This document shows positions 30,955 through 45,608 of a DNA stretch of 64,000 bases, one piece after another. A program made the translations under genes and the position numbers. Within the stretch, counting starts at the first letter, position 1; each line of letters begins with the position of its first letter. Source of the DNA: Mesorhizobium shangrilense (GTDB taxonomy: Bacteria; Pseudomonadota; Alphaproteobacteria; Rhizobiales; Rhizobiaceae); the NCBI RefSeq assembly GCF_040537815.1, contig NZ_JBEWSZ010000009.1:1-64000 (forward strand), written 5' to 3'. The notes below the pieces were generated by a model, which was not told where the DNA came from, searched no databases, and saw nothing but the letters and a program-made list of their open reading frames with translations.

Positions 30955-31030
<76 letters not shown>

Positions 31031-37570: not shown

Positions 37571-39166
37571 TCATCGCCGGGCAATATCCTCGAAGCTGAG
37601 ATCGAACCGCATGAGGTACTTTCGCAAGCGGTCGGCATCATTGCCGCTGGTCTTCTGCAGCCTCGAGACGGCGAACAGTTTTCGCCCGGCCGCGCTGATC
37701 GAATTGCTGTCGCGGCAAACCTCCAGCACGGTCGCCAATTGCGCCCGGTCGAAGATGTCGATCCGGCTTTGCCGCTCAGGTCCGAGAATTTCCGCCAGAA
37801 TGGCGTCGCGGTCACCGGCATCGCCGGCGCGCCACAAGACGCCGAGCCGCTCGGTCTCGTCGCGCACCGTCTCCTCGTTGATGCGGCCGAGCGGCGCCAG
37901 CGTCGCCATGCGGGTGATGGATGCCGAGAGGTCGCGGAAATTCGCCCGCCACATCGCCTCCGGCGCGATGGCGAATTTCAGGTAAAGGTCGCGCGCTTCC
38001 TTGTTGAAGGTGACGTTCTGTCCCTCGCGCTCGCTGAAGCGGCGCAGCTCGAATTCGAGATTGGGCTCGATATCTTCCTTGCGGTCGCGCAGCGCCGGCA
38101 ACTGGAAGGTCCACAGGTTTAGCCGAGCGAACAGGTCCTCGCGGAACCTGCCCTCCTTCACGCCGATCGACAGATCGCGATTGGTGCCGGCCAGAAGCTG
38201 GAAATCCGACGTCACGTCCTGGTCGGCGCCGACCGGCAGGAAGCGCTTTTCCTCGATGGCCCTGAGGCACATGGCCTGCTCGTCGAGGCCGAGTTCGCCG
38301 ATCTCGTCGAGGAACAGCACGCCTTTGTTGGCCGATTTCATCAGCCCGGCGCGCTCGTTCTGGGCGCCGGTGAAGGCGCCCTTGACGTGGCCGAACAGCG
38401 TCGACATCGCCTGGTCGCCGCGCAGCGTCGCACAATTGACCTCGATGAAAGCGCCGGAGACCTGCCGCTGCGCCTTCTTCAACTCATAGATGCGCCTCGC
38501 CAGCTGCGACTTGCCCGCGCCCGTCGGACCGGTGAGCAAGACCGGCGCCCGAGAGCGGATCGTCACCTTCTCTATCTGGTCGATCATCTGGTTGAAGGCG
38601 GGATTGCGTGTGGCGATGCCCGATTTCAGGAACGATGTCGCCTCGTCGCGCTCGGCCGTAAAGCGCGTGGCGATCGCGTCGTAGCGGGACAGGTCGAGGT
38701 CGATGATCGAATGGCTGCCCGATGCGTCGTCACGTCCCTCCTTGCGTGGCGAAAGCTGCAACAACCGCGCAGGAATGAAATGGGCCTCGGTGAGCAGGAA
38801 CCAGCAGATCTGGGCGACATGAGTGCCGGTGGTGATGTTGACGAGGTAATCTTCCTTCTCGGGATCGAATGTATAGGCGCGAGCGAAGTCGCGCAGCGCG
38901 GTATAGACTTCGCTGAAATCCCAATGATCCTTCATGCCGACGATGTGCGGCCTCACCTCGGTCGCCGGGGAAACCTGCTCGATGTCGGCAATGATCTGAC
39001 TGGCCAGCCGCTGCGAGTGAACGTCGTGAATCAATTCCAGCCGATCGATGAAAAGCCCCGGCTGCTGGCACAGCGCTACCGTCGGTCGCCATCTTTTCCA
39101 GCGATCGTCCCGCCCGCTCGCATCAAGCGTCGTACCAAGAATGCCGATCGCAACACGTCTTCTCAT
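37571..39166 (-). CDS. rtcR: RtcR, sigma54-dependent activator of the RNA-repair operon
   Basis: A 531-residue bacterial enhancer-binding protein. The N-terminal sensor domain (residues about 1-180, opening VAIGILGTTLDASG) is CARF-like, as in the RtcR family, which is activated by RNA with damaged ends. The AAA+ core has Walker A GPTGAGKSQLARR near residue 209, the sigma54-contact loop GAFTGAQ near 263 and Walker B GVLFLDEIGEL near 286. The C-terminus contains a HTH-like segment (LATVLEVCRDSNSISAAGRKLFAVSRLQK). It is divergent from rsr, whose upstream region has a sigma54 promoter, so it controls rsr, the RNA array and rtcB. Confidence 0.95.
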   Translation of the reverse strand: MRRRVAIGILGTTLDASGRDDRWKRWRPTVALCQQPGLFIDRLELIHDVHSQRLASQIIADIEQVSPATEVRPHIVGMKDHWDFSEVYTALRDFARAYTFDPEKEDYLVNITTGTHVAQICWFLLTEAHFIPARLLQLSPRKEGRDDASGSHSIIDLDLSRYDAIATRFTAERDEATSFLKSGIATRNPAFNQMIDQIEKVTIRSRAPVLLTGPTGAGKSQLARRIYELKKAQRQVSGAFIEVNCATLRGDQAMSTLFGHVKGAFTGAQNERAGLMKSANKGVLFLDEIGELGLDEQAMCLRAIEEKRFLPVGADQDVTSDFQLLAGTNRDLSIGVKEGRFREDLFARLNLWTFQLPALRDRKEDIEPNLEFELRRFSEREGQNVTFNKEARDLYLKFAIAPEAMWRANFRDLSASITRMATLAPLGRINEETVRDETERLGVLWRAGDAGDRDAILAEILGPERQSRIDIFDRAQLATVLEVCRDSNSISAAGRKLFAVSRLQKTSGNDADRLRKYLMRFDLSFEDIARR

Positions 39167-39325: not shown

Positions 39326-39341
39326 TGGCACGCTGCCTGCA
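39326..39341 (+). promoter_or_regulatory. Sigma54 (-24/-12) promoter of the rsr-rtcB operon
   Basis: TGGCACGCTGCCTGCA matches the consensus TGGCAC-G-R-N3-TTGC at the invariant GG and GC doublets with correct spacing, differing only at the R and the first T of TTGC. It lies 33 bp before the rsr start codon and next to divergent rtcR, as expected for RtcR-dependent transcription. Upstream activator sites should lie between about 39170 and 39320, but I cannot identify them. Confidence 0.85.
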
Positions 39342-39374: not shown

Positions 39375-40934
39375 ATGGCGAACAAATCCGTGTTTGCGAC
39401 GATTGCAGGAAAGCTGCTCCCGCCGGCTGACGCTCGGAACCATGAAGGCGCCCAGGCTTATCGCCCGTCGCCTGAGCAGGCTCTGGCGCAGCTGGCGGCG
39501 ACGGGAACGTTCAACGCGACCTTCTATGCCGAGCCGCGCGAGCAGCTGGACGAGATGCTGAAGCTCGCCTGGCAGGTCGAGCCGGGGTTCCTGGCACGCA
39601 CCGCCGTCCACGCCTTCGAGCAGGGTTTTATGAAGGACATGCCGATACTGTTGCTGGCCGTTCTGTCCTGCATGCAGGGCGACGAATTCAACCGTGCGTT
39701 TGGGCGGATCGTGCGGAACGGCAAGATGCTGCGCAACTTCGTGCAGGTGATGCGTTCCGGCGCCACCGGGCGCAAGTCGCTGGGCACCCGGCCGAAGCGT
39801 CTTGTCCAGGCGTGGCTCGAGCACGCGGCCGACTTCGAGATCATGCGGGCTGCGGTCGGCAATGATCCGTCGCTGGCCGATGTCATCAAGATGGTTCACC
39901 CGAAGCCGAAATCAGCATCGCATGAAGCGCTTTATGGCTACCTGATCGGCAAGCCGCATGATGTCGCGGCGCTGCCGGAGGTGGTGAAGAGCTTCGAGGC
40001 ATTCAAACGCGATCCGTCGCTGCCTGTGCCCGCCGTGCCGTTCCAGATGCTGACCTCGATGTCGCTGACGCCAGCGCATTGGGTGCAGGTCGCGCAAACA
40101 GCCGGATGGCAGATGCTGCGGCAGAATCTCAATACTTTTGCCCGCAACGGCGTGTTCAAAGTGGAAGGGTTCGCCGAGAAGCTGGCGGCGCGACTGCGCA
40201 ACCCGGAAGAGATCCGGCGCGCCCGGGTGTTCCCGTATCAGCTCATGGTGGCCTTCACCATGGCCGACGCGGAGGTGCCTGGCGTGGTCAAGGACGCACT
40301 GCAGGATGCGATGGAAATCGCGCTCGGCAACGTTCCGCAGGTCGACGGCAATGTGGTCGTGTGTCCGGACGTCTCGGGCTCGATGAGCTCGCCGGCGACC
40401 GGTTACCGCAAGGACGCCACGTCGGTCGTGCGTTGCATCGATGTGGCTGCCCTGGTGGCCGCCGCGATGCTGCGCCGCAACCCGACGGCCAGGGTGCTGC
40501 CGTTCGAGAACGATGTGGTGGATATCCACCTCAACGCCCGCGACACGGTGATGACCAACGCCGCGAAGCTTGCCGCCATCGGTGGTGGCGGAACCAACTG
40601 TTCGGCGCCGCTGGCACGGCTGGTCCGTGAGAAGGCCAAGGTCGACCTGGTGGTGTTCGTGTCGGACAACCAGTCCTGGGTGGATGCTACGGCGCATGCA
40701 CATCAGGGGACGGCGACGATGCAGGAATGGCGCAAGCTGAAGGCGTTGAACTCGGAAGCCAAGCTGGTCTGCGTCGACATCCAGCCCTCCACGACGACGC
40801 AGGCGAAGCCTCAAGTCGACATCCTGAATGTCGGCGGCTTCTCCGACCGCGTCTTCGACGTGGTCGGCACGATGCTGACCTCGAACGGCGACCCCGACCA
40901 TTGGGTGCGCACGATCGAGGCGGTCGAACTCTAA
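39375..40934 (+). CDS. rsr: Ro60/TROVE-domain RNA-binding protein (Rsr)
   Basis: A 519-residue bacterial Ro60 orthologue. It has a HEAT-repeat TROVE ring in the N-terminal two thirds (SPEQALAQLAATGTFNATFYAEPREQLDEMLKLA; LLLAVLSCMQGDEFNRAFGRIVRNGKMLRNFVQVMRSG) that binds Y RNA and misfolded RNA, and a C-terminal von Willebrand factor A domain with the metal site DVSGSMSS at residues 332-339, a Thr near 406 (GGGGTNCSAP) and VFVSDNQSW. The second of two in-frame ATGs is used (MANKSVFATIAGK). In the same transcript, five Y-like RNAs and rtcB follow, which fits the known Ro60-YRNA-RtcB RNA repair/quality-control operons. Confidence 0.95.
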   Translation: MANKSVFATIAGKLLPPADARNHEGAQAYRPSPEQALAQLAATGTFNATFYAEPREQLDEMLKLAWQVEPGFLARTAVHAFEQGFMKDMPILLLAVLSCMQGDEFNRAFGRIVRNGKMLRNFVQVMRSGATGRKSLGTRPKRLVQAWLEHAADFEIMRAAVGNDPSLADVIKMVHPKPKSASHEALYGYLIGKPHDVAALPEVVKSFEAFKRDPSLPVPAVPFQMLTSMSLTPAHWVQVAQTAGWQMLRQNLNTFARNGVFKVEGFAEKLAARLRNPEEIRRARVFPYQLMVAFTMADAEVPGVVKDALQDAMEIALGNVPQVDGNVVVCPDVSGSMSSPATGYRKDATSVVRCIDVAALVAAAMLRRNPTARVLPFENDVVDIHLNARDTVMTNAAKLAAIGGGGTNCSAPLARLVREKAKVDLVVFVSDNQSWVDATAHAHQGTATMQEWRKLKALNSEAKLVCVDIQPSTTTQAKPQVDILNVGGFSDRVFDVVGTMLTSNGDPDHWVRTIEAVEL

Positions 40935-40966: not shown

Positions 40967-40983
40967 ACCCGAAATTCAGGGCA

Positions 40984-41104
40984 TGACGAATGCCGATGGA
41001 ACTACAGGGCTTCCAGGTCGCGGGTTCGATTCCCGCCGGAGCAACAGCTCCGTAGTTCAGCGGTCAGAACGGGAATATAAGGTTTCACAATAGACTTGTC
41101 GTCA
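40984..41104 (+). ncRNA. Y-RNA-like tRNA mimic, copy 1
   Basis: Closing stem TGACGA (40984-40989) pairs with TCGTCA (41099-41104), next to an unpaired AATG/CTTG zone. A second stem TGGAAC (40997-41002) pairs with GTTTCA (41082-41087) and is followed by TACAGG. Inside lie a T-arm (GCGGG TTCGATT CCCGC, 41020-41036), an acceptor-like hairpin CGGAGC-aaca-GCTCCG (41037-41052) and a D-arm GTTC/GAAC (41055-41070). The order T, acceptor, D is that of a circularly permuted tRNA. Transcribed with rsr and rtcB. Ends are estimates from pairing. Confidence 0.85.
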
Positions 41105-41120
41105 CACCTCGCAAGAAACA

Positions 41121-41248
41121 GCCGCAGCGAATGCCCGATGGAACTACAGCACAAATGGGATGCTCCGTGAGGTTCGACTCCTCACCTTGCAGGCGCTCTC
41201 TGGCACGAGCGGGACTCCCGATGTTTCATCACCCCTTGTCGCCGCGGC
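41121..41248 (+). ncRNA. Y-RNA-like tRNA mimic, copy 2
   Basis: Closing stem GCCGCAGCGA (41121-41130) pairs with TCGCCGCGGC (41239-41248), ten positions with one A-C mismatch, then AATG/CTTG. The second stem GATGGAAC (41137-41144) pairs with GTTTCATC (41223-41230), all eight positions with one G-U. Inside are a T-arm GTGAGG TTCGACT CCTCAC (41167-41185) and a D-arm CGCTC/GAGCG around TCTGGCAC (41194-41211). The acceptor-like hairpin is reduced to CCT/AGG around TGC, so the fold is less tRNA-like here than in copies 1, 3 and 5. Confidence 0.82.
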
Positions 41249-41260
41249 GACGTAATAGAA

Positions 41261-41385
41261 TGGCGAATGCAGGCAGGACTACAGGTAGCGCGCCCGTCGA
41301 AAGGCGGGAGGTCGGGTGTTCAAATCACTCTCTCGCTCTGCGGAGCGAGGTGGCGCAGTCACCGTCTTGCCAACCCTTGTCGCCA
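41261..41385 (+). ncRNA. Y-RNA-like tRNA mimic, copy 3
   Basis: Closing stem TGGCGA (41261-41266) pairs with TCGCCA (41380-41385), then AATG/CTTG. Second stem GGCAGGAC (41272-41279) pairs with GTCTTGCC (41364-41371), eight pairs with one G-U, followed by TACAGG. Inside are an anticodon-arm-like hairpin (CCCG...CGGG), a variable-loop-like AGGTC, a T-arm GGGTG TTCAAAT CACTC (41314-41330), a seven-pair acceptor-like hairpin CTCGCTC-tgcg-GAGCGAG (41332-41349), and a D-arm GTG/CAC around GCGCAGT. This is the best-preserved permuted tRNA. Confidence 0.87.
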
Positions 41386-41397
41386 GCCGATTGAACA

Positions 41398-41491
41398 GGG
41401 CGAATGCCTGCGGGAATACATTGGCATCTGGCGGTTCGAATCCGCCCGTCGGTCGGTTGACCGATCGGTTTCTCGCATCGACTTGTCGCCC
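41398..41491 (+). ncRNA. Y-RNA-like tRNA mimic, copy 4 (short)
   Basis: Closing stem GGGCGA (41398-41403) pairs with TCGCCC (41486-41491), then AATG/CTTG. Second stem TGCGGGAA (41409-41416) pairs with TTCTCGCA (41470-41477), eight pairs with one G-U. Inside, a T-arm GGCGG TTCGAAT CCGCC (41430-41446) and a seven-pair acceptor-like hairpin GTCGGTC-ggtt-GACCGAT (41448-41465). The D-arm is missing. It is the shortest copy. Confidence 0.82.
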
Positions 41492-41512
41492 GCCGGAGAG
41501 AAAGAGAATGAA

Positions 41513-41645
41513 TGGCGAATGCAGGCAGGACTACAGGGATAGAGCGTCCGCAACGAAAGTCGCGGAAGGTCGGATGTTCAAGCCATCCCTTCCATCCGAG
41601 GATGGAAAGTAGCTCAGTAACTGTCTTGCCGATCCCTTGTCGCCA
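41513..41645 (+). ncRNA. Y-RNA-like tRNA mimic, copy 5
   Basis: Closing stem TGGCGA (41513-41518) pairs with TCGCCA (41640-41645), then AATG/CTTG. Second stem GGCAGGAC (41524-41531) pairs with GTCTTGCC (41623-41630), then TACAGG. Inside, an anticodon-arm-like hairpin CCGC/GCGG, AAGGTC, a T-arm GGATG TTCAAGC CATCC (41572-41588), an acceptor-like hairpin TTCCATC-cgag-GATGGAA (41590-41607) and a D-arm AGT/ACT. It shares stems with copy 3 but has a different middle, so it is not a simple recent duplication. Confidence 0.85.
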
Positions 41646-41694
41646 GTCCGCAATACGCAGTACTGCCCAGGGCAGTGTACCGAAAGTGAAAGAC

Positions 41695-43107
41695 ATGACC
41701 GAGATTTTGAGTGGACAGGATTTGATCGACGCCGGCATGGGGCAGGGCAAGTGGTTCGGCAAAGCGCTGGCCGCCGCCAACGCGGTGCTGGAGAGCGGCG
41801 GATCGCAGGGCGATGCGCTGGAGGTCGCGCGTGGCTTCGCGCCGCCGCCGGCCGTGGCTTTGCAGGTGGCCGCCTCCGTGCCGCTGCATCTGAACATCCA
41901 GGCGGATACGCCGGAGGAAACGGCCAACGTCGAAGCGGTCACGCGCACCATGACCGAACTGATGCGCACGCCGGTCGTCCGCGCTGGCGCCATCATGCCG
42001 GATGCCTGCCCGGCTGGTCCGTTGGGCACCATTCCGGTTGGCGGCGTCGCGGTGTCCGAGGCGATCCATCCCGGCATGCATTCGGCTGATATCTGCTGCT
42101 CGATGGCCATCTCGGTATTTCCGGGCGTCGCGCCTGCCGCATTGCTCGATGCCGTTCATGGGGTCACCCATTTCGGGCCGGGCGGGCGTCAGCGCGGCCA
42201 GCAGATCCGACCGGCCAAGGAGGTCTTCGAGCGTTTCGAGGCCAACCCGTTGCTGCGCGACCTGACCAGTGCCGCGATCGAGCATTTCGGCACGCAGGGC
42301 GACGGCAACCATTTCGCCTATGTCGGCACCCTGAAGTCGAGCGGCGAGACGGCGCTGGTCACCCATCACGGCTCGCGCTCGCCGGGCGCGCGGCTCTACA
42401 GCAAGGGCATGAAGATCGCCGAGGGCGTCCGTAGGACGCTGTCGCCGGAAACCTTGCCGCATAACGCCTGGATCCCGGCCGATACGCGGGAAGGCGATGA
42501 GTATTGGGAGGCCCTGCAGACGATCCGCGAATGGACCAAGGGCAACCACATGCTGATCCATGATCTCGCGGCCGAAAAGCTGTCGGCGAAGGTGTCGGAC
42601 CGGTTCTGGAACGAGCACAACTTCGTCTTCCGCCGTTCGGACGGGCTGTTCTACCACGGCAAGGGCGCCACGCCGGCCTTCGACAACTGGGCCGATGACG
42701 CGACCGATCTGACGCTGATCCCGCTCAACATGGCGGAACCGGTGTTGATCGTGCGCGGCAGGAACGCGGCGCACGGACTTGGCTTCTCGCCGCACGGCGC
42801 CGGGCGCAATTTTTCGCGCACCCAGCACCGGCGCATGCAGGCGGGGCGCAGCGACGCCGATATCTTCACTGAGGAGACGAAGGGCATCGATGCCCGCTTC
42901 TTCTCCGGCGTAACGGATATTTCCGAGCTGCCGAGCGCCTACAAGAACGCGGCCTCGATGCGCCGCCAGATCGAACATTTCGGCCTGGCGGAGATCGTCG
43001 ACGAGGTGCTGCCTTATGGCTGCATCATGGCCGGCGACTGGGAAGCCAATGCGCCCTGGCGCAAGAAGAAGGAGCGGCGCTCGCAGGAGGAGCGCCAGCG
43101 GTCGTGA
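41695..43107 (+). CDS. rtcB: RtcB-family RNA ligase
   Basis: A 470-residue member of the RtcB family, which joins 2',3'-cyclic-phosphate and 5'-hydroxyl RNA ends using GTP and manganese. Family features visible: HPGMHSADICCSMAISVFP, GTQGDGNHFAYVGTLKSSGETALVTHHGSRSPGARLYSKG near residues 200-240, HNFVFRRSDGLFYHGKGATPAF, and SPHGAGRNFSRTQHRR, whose His367 sits where the guanylylated His of E. coli RtcB lies. The usual GGGNH and VHSGSR motifs are changed to GDGNH and THHGSR. It is longer than E. coli RtcB (408). No rtcA gene follows. Confidence 0.92.
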   Translation: MTEILSGQDLIDAGMGQGKWFGKALAAANAVLESGGSQGDALEVARGFAPPPAVALQVAASVPLHLNIQADTPEETANVEAVTRTMTELMRTPVVRAGAIMPDACPAGPLGTIPVGGVAVSEAIHPGMHSADICCSMAISVFPGVAPAALLDAVHGVTHFGPGGRQRGQQIRPAKEVFERFEANPLLRDLTSAAIEHFGTQGDGNHFAYVGTLKSSGETALVTHHGSRSPGARLYSKGMKIAEGVRRTLSPETLPHNAWIPADTREGDEYWEALQTIREWTKGNHMLIHDLAAEKLSAKVSDRFWNEHNFVFRRSDGLFYHGKGATPAFDNWADDATDLTLIPLNMAEPVLIVRGRNAAHGLGFSPHGAGRNFSRTQHRRMQAGRSDADIFTEETKGIDARFFSGVTDISELPSAYKNAASMRRQIEHFGLAEIVDEVLPYGCIMAGDWEANAPWRKKKERRSQEERQRS

Positions 43108-43149: not shown

Positions 43150-44103
43150 CTACCTGGGCAGGTTGAACACGAAAGGCGCGAGGATGCTCGTGCCTACCTT
43201 CTCGGGTGGCGGTGCCGGCACCGTGGCGCCCTGAAGGGCCGACAGCGCCGCCCGATCGAGGTCGTCGCTACCAGATGAGCGGGAAAGTCTGGCGGTGAGG
43301 ACCCGGCCGGATGCGTCGACCGTAAAGGTCACATACGGGTTGCCCTCCACGCGCCTCGCGCTCGCCGCTCTCGGATAGCGTGTATGCCGCTTGATCCAGG
43401 CTCCCAGACGAGAACTCCACCTGCTGTCGTCACCGGATCTCGACGCCGCCTCGGCGGACTTCGGCGCGGCCGTCTTGGCCGAGGGCTTCACATCCGCGCT
43501 TGCGGTGACAACGGTCTTGGCTGGCGCCGCCTTTTCCTTCTTCTGCCGGGGCTTGGGCTTGTCGACGGGCTTTTTGGCCTTGGCTTCAACCGGCTTCTTT
43601 TTCTCGACCTGCGTTTCGACCGGTTTCGGCTGCGGCAAGGGAATGACCACGTCAGGGGCGACGGCCTGGACGATGTCCGGAACGACCTCGTCCAGCGGGG
43701 GCTGATCAGTAGGCTCGGTGACGCTCGGTTGGGCTTGCGCTACCGGGTCGGACGGAGCGGCCTCCGCTTCCTCGGTCACCGGCTCCGGCGATGGGTCCGT
43801 GACAGGCTCCGCCGTGGTGATCGTTTCCTGCGTTTCTATAGGCTCCCTCTGGTCGGGCGGGGTCGGATCCAGCATCGCCGCCTGTTCCTCGATGGCTGGC
43901 GCGACCATCATGGGGGCCATGTCGATCACCATCGCTGGCGGCGGACCACCGTCCGACGCGTCGGCGTCACTCCATTCCTGGACCCCATAGGCGATAGCGA
44001 CATGCGCACCGAGAACAAGCGCGGTGGCAGCCGTCCACAAGCCCAGGTCGCGCCAGCCAAAGCGCGACAGCTGAACCGAGGGGGCGGCCGACTGCTGGGT
44101 CAT
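43150..44103 (-). CDS. tonB: Energy transducer TonB
   Basis: A 317-residue protein that couples the inner-membrane proton motive force to outer-membrane receptors. It has an N-terminal transmembrane anchor ([22 protein letters not shown], about residues 20-41), a long Pro/Glu/Lys-rich periplasmic spacer ([31 protein letters not shown]), and the C-terminal TonB domain ([48 protein letters not shown]). Its start overlaps the exbD stop by four bases. No TonB-dependent receptor is in the window. Confidence 0.92.
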
Positions 44104-44567
44104 GGCACTGCCGCTCCGCCCGCGGCCGGCGCCGCGGCATCGGCGGATGGCATTGTCTCCAGGCCGACCAGCGCGATCTTCAGATAGCCGGCGCCGCGCA
44201 ACAGGTTCATCGCCTCCATCAGGTCGCCATAGGCGACCGCCTTGTCGGCGCGCAGGAAGATGCGTGTCTGCTTGTCACCCTTGGTCCTGCCGTCGAGGAC
44301 GGCGGCAAGGCCCGCGCGCGGCACGGTGTCGTTGCCAACAGCCAGGGTGAGATCGTCCTTCAGCGTCAGGAACAGCGGCGTCTCGGGCCGGGGCGCGGGC
44401 GTCGCGGTGGAGCCCGGCAGGTCGACATTGATATCGACCGTCGCCAGGGGGGCCGCGACCATGAAGATGATCAGCAGCACCAGGATGACGTCGATGAAGG
44501 GAGTGACGTTGATCTCGTGGTTTTCCTCGAGATCGCCTTCCGGATTCTCGTGTATTCTACTTGCCAT
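44100..44567 (-). CDS. exbD: ExbD/TolR family proton-channel subunit
   Basis: A 155-residue inner-membrane protein with a single N-terminal helix ([18 protein letters not shown], near residues 24-41), preceded by [11 protein letters not shown], in which the Asp is the family proton-channel residue, followed by the periplasmic ExbD/TolR domain ([39 protein letters not shown]). It is 12 bp after exbB and overlaps tonB by four bases, making exbB-exbD-tonB one unit. Confidence 0.93.
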
Positions 44568-44579
44568 CGCGCCGCTCCG

Positions 44580-45563
44580 TCATTCCGCCGCCACGGCGCT
44601 CAACGGCGGAACCGTACGGAAATCCAGGTCCCGGCTGACCAGCCGTTCGACACCGGCCGACGCATCGGCAAGAATCTGCCGGTAGCCGGCTATGGAGCGC
44701 GCAAAGACGTTGTAGATCACGACCGCCGGGATAGCGGCGACCAGCCCCATGGCGGTGGCGAGCAGTGCCTCGGCAATGCCGGGCGCGACGACGGCGAGGT
44801 TGGTGGTCTGCGCCTGCGATATGCCGATGAAGGCGTTCATGATGCCCCAGACGGTGCCGAACAGGCCGACGAAAGGCGCGGTCGATCCAATCGTCGCCAG
44901 CACGCCGGTGCCGCGCGACATGCGCCGCGACGCCGCCGCCTCGATGCGCGACAGACGCGACGCGACGCGCTCCTTCAGCCCATCTCCGGAGACATGGTCT
45001 AGCGCGCCGGCCGAAAGTGCGGCCTCTTCCTCGGCGGCCCGCACCAGCAAGGCACCGGGTCCGCTGTTGTGGCCAAGCGCACGGCCGGCCTGCGTCAGCG
45101 TCGCGGCGTCGCCGATGGCGCGCGCGGCGCGCCCGGCGCGAAGCTTGCCACCAAGGATTTCCAGCGACTTGGCCACCCATATCGTCCAGGTGACGAGCGA
45201 GGCAAACGCCAGGCCCAGCATCACCCCCTTCACCACGATGTCGGCGGCCATGAACATTCCCCATGGCGACAAATCGTGCGGCAAGGTCAGTGACGGCGCC
45301 GGGCCGCCGACCGTGGGAGTGTCAATGGCAGTGGCATTCGCGGGCACCTGCACCGGCGCGGCCGTGGCTGGCGCTCCATTCGCGGGAGCGACGGAGGCCG
45401 GTGCCGGCGTGGTTGGTGCTGCCGCGGCCGGTGCTGCCTGCGTCTCGACGACAGGAGGACTGCCGGCCGGCTGTTCTTGAGCGCAAACGCCACCGGCCGA
45501 CAGGACGGCGGATGCGACCAGCGCGGCGAACAGACCAATTCTCGACAAGGTTTTCGTCCTCAT
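44580..45563 (-). CDS. exbB: TonB-system energizer ExbB
   Basis: A 327-residue inner-membrane protein. The chosen ATG gives a signal peptide ([23 protein letters not shown]) and then a long Ala/Pro-rich stretch (residues about 30-95) before the first membrane helix, as in the extended ExbB branch. The channel core is [30 protein letters not shown] and, after a cytosolic loop, [71 protein letters not shown]. The frame runs 13 codons further upstream with no sign of coding. Confidence 0.92.
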
Positions 45564-45608
45564 TCTCGCAGCGGTGTGCCGCTCCCTATTTGGCGCAACC
45601 AAATCCAG

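Follow-up and report, generated by a model that had tools for sequence, protein, structure and literature searches.

The gap between rsr and rtcB in Mesorhizobium shangrilense carries an array of Y RNAs in which two of the five units, u3 and u5, are predicted to hold a tRNA body opened inside the D-loop, between tRNA positions 15 and 18, rather than at the anticodon. The array lies in a stretch of 64,000 nucleotides, referred to here as the window (contig NZ_JBEWSZ010000009.1, positions 1 to 64,000, forward strand). The five units, u1 to u5, are confirmed, their assignment as bacterial Y RNAs of the YrlA group located beside a Ro60/Rsr gene is supported, and comparison of their sequences and predicted folds establishes that they are not five versions of one design. 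The D-loop permutation of u3 and u5 is the most unusual part of the array and is absent from the initial annotation.

A Pfam scan of the window identified rtcR upstream of rsr and divergent from it (37571..39166, minus strand), with RtcR and sigma54-activator domains (PF06956, E 2e-80; PF00158, E 9e-50). The Ro60-like protein is encoded by rsr (39375..40934, plus strand; the ORF is also open from 39366), and its product matched the Pfam vWA_Ro60 domain (E 1e-19) and the Deinococcus Rsr structure 2nvo (E 3e-21), with a TROVE match (E 0.0002) just under the TROVE cut-off. The RNA ligase gene rtcB follows at 41695..43107 on the plus strand (PF01139, E 7e-32), and the next gene scanned is a TonB-family gene on the opposite strand. 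These Pfam and PDB matches for Rsr, RtcB, and RtcR bear out the operon position given in the initial annotation, and the layout, with rtcR divergent and the order rsr - Y RNA - rtcB, is that of an RtcR-controlled RNA repair operon. A sigma54 (-24/-12)-like site, TGGCACGCTGCCTGC, is found in the rtcR-rsr gap (39326..39340, plus strand). This putative promoter was assigned by pattern only, and its position is the main argument for it since the window contains two such matches, with 0.73 expected by chance. The array is most likely transcribed with rsr and rtcB from the sigma54 promoter under RtcR. The rtcB frame is also open upstream into u5 (41512-41694, plus strand, with an ATG at 41512), so gene callers may place the rtcB start inside the RNA; the start is likely at 41695. 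By eye, the TonB-family gene just downstream of rtcB is followed by two ExbD-/ExbB-like ORFs (43150-45602, minus strand). No Rsr relatives were found in viral contigs with the query used.

Read directly, the gap from the end of rsr (40934) to the start of rtcB (41695) holds five head-to-tail units on the plus strand, spanning about 40983-41649, and all five that had been annotated are present. They share a handle formed by a closing stem with NCGAATGC / CTTGTCGN, followed by a second stem with a fixed G-U pair. The closing stems are TGACGA/TCGTCA in u1, TGGCGA/TCGCCA in u3 and u5, and GGGCGA/TCGCCC in u4, with a longer stem containing one mismatch in u2, and the second stem of each unit has G-U at the identical place; both series of stems read as the initial annotation had given them. 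In relatives, this wobble is the commonest pair at its place (20 of 24 D-type, 10 of 15 u4-type, and 13 of 15 u2-type sequences). The closing-stem motif of the CGAA...G / CTTG-CG type, which we take to be the Ro60 site, occurs in 5/5 window units. The handle motif also varies in a paired way, with CAAATG accompanying TTG and TGAATG accompanying TCA (L016:6889, L017:7296, and L012:7073), which indicates that CGA is not absolutely fixed.

The proposed Y RNA identity is supported by the location beside rsr and by matches of the Rfam YrlA model RF02553 to u1 through u5, with scores of 63.7, 14.6, 31.4, 46.4, and 28.1 bits, respectively (E 4e-14 to 6.9). All of these scores are below the gathering score of 69 bits, so annotation at the cut-off misses the units, and a gathering-level Rfam scan of the window reported no YrlA unit. 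Two covariance models were built, R1 from 24 units of the D type, to which u3 and u5 belong, and R2 from 23 canonical units. The u2 unit, insignificant with Rfam (E 6.9), is clear with R2 (44.2 bits, E 3e-10), and u4 scores 49.7 bits; neither is in the R2 training set. Single-sequence fold energies are weak (z of -2.2, -0.9, -2.3, -0.4, and -3.0 for u1 to u5) and decide little. None of the units was detected as a linear tRNA cloverleaf by ARAGORN or RF00005 across the window, in which the only tRNA is a tRNA-Ala at 30955. Aligned with MAFFT by themselves (A1), the five window units came out with their different designs misaligned, and this alignment was not used.

A tRNA-like head is present in u1, u3, and u5. 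The u1 unit (class A, about 40983-41108) has the canonical YrlA layout, with a T-arm, an acceptor hairpin, and a D-arm within the second stem; it matches RF02553 over the whole model and scores 103.8 bits with R2, of whose training set it is a member. By its arm order and at the level of predicted fold, it is a circular permutation of a tRNA body with the opening at the anticodon, like known YrlA. The RF02553 arm order is not found in u3 and u5, which are opened in the D-loop, or in u4 (class E, about 41396-41495), which contains a T-arm and one further hairpin but no D-arm. The u2 unit (class C, about 41121-41249) is a divergent unit and tRNA-like only in part, carrying the handle, a T-arm, and a conserved GCGCTC-TCTGGCAC-GAGCG hairpin, with the acceptor stem almost absent. 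In a 15-sequence alignment and fold of the u2 type, the T-loop and this hairpin are nearly invariant, and 6/29 pairs have double changes. The consensus fold of 15 u4-type sequences has double changes in 12/24 predicted pairs, and its second hairpin is less well kept, with each pair broken in 2-4/15 sequences. Overall tRNA likeness was not detected in u2 and u4 by tandem-tRNA scoring (38 and 35, not above the shuffled maxima of 46 and 43).

The u3 (class D1, about 41259-41389) and u5 (class D2, about 41511-41649) units keep the D-stem, the anticodon stem, the T-arm, and a joined acceptor stem. Their heads run from the second half of the D-loop and D-stem through an anticodon-type hairpin, AGGTC, the T-arm, and the acceptor hairpin to position 8, the first half of the D-stem, and A14 G15. 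A short loop connects the acceptor ends, and another takes the place of the anticodon loop, in D-type units often as a GNRA loop. With the opening between positions 15 and 18, the handle would leave through the D-loop. On the plus strand in u3, the second half of the D-loop and D-stem, GGTA-GCGC, is at 41284..41291 (tRNA positions 18, 19, 21, and 22-25; alignment A2 columns 26-34), followed by the anticodon-arm equivalent CCCGTC-GAAA-GGCGGG (41293..41308), in which a GNRA tetraloop replaces the anticodon loop, and by the T-arm GGGTG-TTCAAAT-CACTC (41314..41330). The acceptor-stem hairpin TCTCGCTC-TGCG-GAGCGAGG (41331..41350) joins the two tRNA ends by a 4-nt loop, as supported by fold and consensus, and is followed by position 8 (T), position 9, the first half of the D-stem (GCGC), and A14 G15 (41351..41358). 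The corresponding parts of u5, also on the plus strand, are a predicted D-stem pairing 41542-41545 with 41612-41615 (GAGC/GCTC), an anticodon stem capped by GAAA (41547-41566), and a T-arm (41572-41588).

The D-type fold was examined in an alignment (A2) of 24 of the 34 D-type units with R1 scores of at least 75 bits from the window and 35 further rsr loci (L001-L035); the fold was recognized and tested in this one alignment, in which many rows come from closely related Mesorhizobium. Given A2 alone, RNAalifold returned a permuted cloverleaf in which 16/34 pairs have a double-sided change in at least one sequence. The D-type fold described above, with the acceptor not included, paired 96.8% of 696 cells, and slid versions of it reached 36-61%. 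Double changes occur in 12/29 of its pairs, and 0/500 shuffles were as high. The covariation proposed in the initial annotation, the lack of which had been named as grounds for refutation, is upheld. The outermost closing pair fails in 19/24 sequences. One D-stem pair is A-U in 13/24 and C-G in 11/24. Two of the other three are invariant and the third has one wobble, which leaves one covarying pair as the main support for the stem.

The tRNA bases U8, A14, G15, G18, G19, A21, G45, G46, T47, C48, T54, T55, and C56 are found in the permuted order in 24/24 sequences of A2, as is a purine at position 26; A44 and A58 are found in 23/24. For a check outside A2, 46 distinct D-type units (51 listed) were realigned, 22 of which are not in A2. 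These include all ten D-type units that A2 had left out, namely, nine passed over by the initial pattern scan and L011:7192, which that scan had caught; a shortened D2 without the anticodon hairpin, L004:7351 (63.4 bits), stands outside both sets. All ten core positions checked are kept in 14/22 of these units, and the other 8 miss one or two, namely, T54 in four units, C56 in three, U8 in one, and G18 in one. Over the 46 units, A14, G19, A21, G46, C48, and T55 are universal, U8, G15, and G18 are present in 45, C56 is present in 43, and T54 is present in 42. R1 scores for units outside its training set reach 132 bits (L002:7334) and, in genomes of the order sample described below, 121 (G294) and 105 bits (G283). 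In tandem-tRNA scoring, u3 (61, with a shuffled maximum of 54) and u5 (50, with 48) are only modestly above shuffled sequences, so for these two the argument comes from structure and core bases. A candidate origin of u3 as a copy of tRNA-Pro was not upheld, the best matches being Thr (61), Gly (55), and Pro (53).

It is hardly credible that u3 and u5 represent no new permutation but the usual anticodon-opened YrlA type carrying one more hairpin, i.e., a long variable arm. Rfam does fit both units to its canonical model, with forced matches of 31 and 28 bits. However, D-type units outside the R1 training set score far higher with R1 than with R2 (132 versus 31 bits for L002:7334 and 113 versus 41 bits for L008:7086). 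The scores of u3 (140.9 bits) and u5 (129.2 bits) with R1 are high by construction, as for all training members of R1 and R2. In addition, the extra hairpin is preceded by GGTA-GNGC-R and followed by AGGTC (positions 44-48), the order of a D-loop and then an anticodon arm, and a true long variable arm occurs additionally, in the F units of relatives. The assignment of the hairpin as a class II variable arm, once a candidate, was dropped after the D-type units were aligned.

The F units, found in relatives and not in the window, are a predicted D-loop-opened version of tRNA-Leu with a long variable arm. Against a tandem of the tRNA-Leu(UAG) of the window genome, the unit L002:7479 reaches 90, with 38 for the next tRNA family and at most 47 for its shuffles (n=30). 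The lowest-energy folds of L012:7073 and L033:6223 contain the D-stem, anticodon arm, variable arm, T-arm, and acceptor hairpin; the tRNA score of L033 is not Leu-specific. Alignment A5 held 11 of the 14 F units, those of L001 and of L005 and L029 (long insertions) having been left out after A3. In these 11 units, 95.4% of 412 cells are paired and 16/38 pairs have double changes (0/500 shuffles as high), and the D-stem never varies. Covariation supports both predicted D-loop-opened versions, the D type and the F type. A 7-nt anticodon loop with T at the U33 place was found in 0/57 parsed D and F units (60 listed; 55 distinct parsed). A GNRA loop was found in 20/45 parsed D rows (two of them duplicates), with loop classes being approximate because some parses are off (L010, L011:7192, L024, and L029 [TTCG run past by the script], and the F unit of L001). 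By eye, a planctomycete unit (L028:6689-6828) has an apparent tRNA-Leu-like D-arm and a variable-arm hairpin, which suggests that Leu mimicry may occur in both permutations.

The 35 loci, retrieved by an Rsr search of genome contigs, range from Mesorhizobium to Acidobacteria, Planctomycetes, Nitrosospira, and Pseudomonas. A motif-plus-stem scan gave 134 units in these loci and the window. At E 0.01 or better, R1 and R2 had 163 and 184 matches, respectively, over the 36 sources. Merged matches starting with CGAA numbered 151, with at least one in each source, and further matches with changed motifs, such as CAAATG and TGAATG, fall outside the 151. Judged by motif and eye, nonunit matches were few, including the tRNA-Ala of the window (18.3 bits, R1) and some partial matches in L025 and L030. 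Homologous units adjoining rsr, whose absence from related loci had been named as grounds for refutation, were present in 36/36 loci examined. An Acidobacteriota D-type unit (L030:3371) scores 75.5 bits with R1, and its lowest-energy fold is without the D-stem. Another order of the same class also has a D-loop-opened unit (G425, 89.7 bits), with rsr on the same stretch. Units with a Y RNA handle and a head without a recognizable tRNA arm were observed at L010:7358-7455 and L017:7599-7707.

In the 8.35-Mb genome to which the window belongs, R1 ranked u3 (141 bits) and u5 (129 bits) first, then u4 (39.1 bits), and the one place found elsewhere (25.8 bits, on another contig) overlaps a tRNA-Thr. 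In a sample of 397 genomes of the order, which partly overlaps the 35-locus set (five identical D units), Rsr was detected at E 1e-20 in 29. R1 scored at least 49 bits in 21 genomes, all among the 29, and 69 bits or more in 15; the top R1 score among the listed genomes without Rsr was 45.4 (G097). At E 0.001, R1 matched 261/397 genomes, mostly weakly. The fetched stretches of the matches of at least 49 bits carry rsr in 21/21 cases, and the eight fetched matches without rsr on the stretch all overlap a tRNA gene. Counting as a unit any merged match of at least 20 bits to R1 or R2, with the two loci of G212 taken as one, all 29 Rsr-positive genomes have Y RNA units, in total 124, with 1 to 8 per genome and a median of 4; 28 genomes have two or more and 12 have five or more, and these counts are lower bounds since the flanks were 1.5 kb. 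In 16 order loci (L113-L128), Rfam at its cut-off found 9 units versus 72 found by R1 and R2, which means that cut-off annotation undercounts Y RNAs. Y RNA units are also present where the rsr match has an internal stop (L140, G033) or is in two pieces (L139/L141, G212).

The types appear to be maintained separately. Across seven genomes, D1 is 91% and D2 is 87% identical, and D1 and D2 of one genome are 67% identical; orthologs are closer than paralogs, which indicates that the types are kept apart. The type order agrees among L001-L007 where types are kept. It is very improbable that a single Y RNA was duplicated in tandem and that the extra copies drift without separate function. The copy number does vary from 1 to 8 per locus, and the window is without two types present in L001 and L002, as drift would allow, but the ortholog identities far above those of paralogs, the agreement in type order, and the compensatory changes that keep pairing all argue against it.

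Several features of the array are shared with known systems. Bacterial Y RNAs whose head is a permuted tRNA are already known as a kind (PMC11472068), with a structure of YrlA available (6CU1; PMC8394870, PMC11472068), and YrlA is a substrate of tRNA-modifying enzymes (PMC8394870). The array resembles Salmonella YrlA (RF02553) in operon setting, handle motifs, tRNA-like head, and circular permutation, and u1 has the arm order of the Rfam model. It differs in that the opening of u3, u5, and the relatives' F units lies in the D-loop and their anticodon arm is retained with a different loop, and in that operons hold up to eight divergent units, those of the window being below the Rfam cut-off. 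In Salmonella, RtcR switches on the rsr-yrlBA-rtcBA operon when broken tRNAs accumulate, and an operon with multiple Y RNAs is already known from there (PMC7790460, PMC9879122); the initial annotation presented five divergent copies as new, of which the array itself is real and the presence of several Y RNAs per operon is not new in itself. Within the part of the key Y RNA literature covered, no published D-loop-opened head or array of five to eight units was found. Short units consisting of the handle only, about 60-80 nt, occur in the arrays of relatives (e.g., L019:6572, L021:6689, and L029:6851) and resemble YrlB, the short handle-only kind of Y RNA, whereas none of the five window units is of this kind.

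It is probable that the conserved Y RNA panel tethers Rsr to tRNA-binding factors during tRNA-damage stress. The array transcript would be cut into separate RNAs, the handle of each most likely binding Rsr and each unit carrying a different effector head. With a common handle and differing heads, the simplest reading is one Rsr with several adaptors, and we infer several RNA adaptors for one protein. Each RNA could tether Rsr to tRNA-recognizing proteins, such as PNPase, tRNA-modifying or tRNA-cutting enzymes, and possibly RtcB, and with the two openings the tRNA body may face Rsr in either of two orientations. Since u1, u3, and u5 are without an anticodon loop, they could bind anticodon nucleases uncut. 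The panel would come into play once RtcR has been activated by broken tRNAs. Many tRNA enzymes require a free acceptor end, which the joined heads lack, and this counts against the tethering reading. In Deinococcus radiodurans, Rsr is tethered by a Y RNA to PNPase in the RYPER complex (PMC7790460, PMC8058203, PMC8394870). The present system is similar in the Rsr homolog and the proposed tether role and differs in having several Y RNAs per array, an operon with rtcB and rtcR, and a link to PNPase that is putative. The roles of bacterial Ro60 and Y RNA beside the RNA-repair ligase are outside the scope of the studies in PMC7790460.

The units might be chiefly competitive inhibitors of tRNA-cleaving nucleases, binding the nuclease through the tRNA body while offering no anticodon loop, with Rsr only stabilizing them. 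Such a role would agree with the lack of a 7-nt loop with U33 in all parsed D and F units and with a Salmonella study in which no YrlA fragments were detected when tRNAs were cut and competitive inhibition was named as a possibility (PMC7790460). We regard it as rather unlikely, as u2 and u4 keep little of a tRNA and a decoy would not need the conserved Rsr handle found in every unit. Distinctly unlikely is a role of the array as broken-tRNA mimics, with which Rsr would keep either the enzymes of repair and decay (RtcB, PNPase) or the cutting enzymes at places having the shape of a nicked tRNA. Each full head would represent a tRNA body interrupted at the anticodon loop or the D-loop, with the broken ends on the Rsr handle, the natural ends sealed, and one adaptor for each kind of break. 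Both interruption places are cutting sites of the tRNA-cleaving toxin MazF-mt9, whose targets are the D-loop in one tRNA and the anticodon stem-loop in another (PMC5086665). Distinct tRNA mimics conserved as a set within a single operon suggest more than one Rsr partner, and each RNA of the array offers itself for separate deletion or tagging. As a natural RNA design, a tRNA body that is built anew around an opening in the D-loop and lacks the anticodon loop is likewise of interest.

The origin of the D-type heads is a matter of conjecture. Reading two tandem tRNA genes from the D-loop of the first, over their junction, to the D-loop of the second gives the layout of a D-type head. R1 matches across tandem tRNA-Thr junctions (G353 and G328; 111 nt) run from base 17 of one gene to base 20 of the next. 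Such matches make a tandem-tRNA origin an attractive guess, and the D-type heads may have arisen in this way. The R1 matches in L109 and L110 (1501-1611), which span a tandem tRNA-Thr junction, offer a possible picture of this origin. N-CCA often opens the acceptor hairpin loop of class A units in relatives (L001:6619-6746, L006:6615-6762, and others), though not that of u1 in the window, an arrangement resembling a tRNA 3' end joined to a following 5' end.
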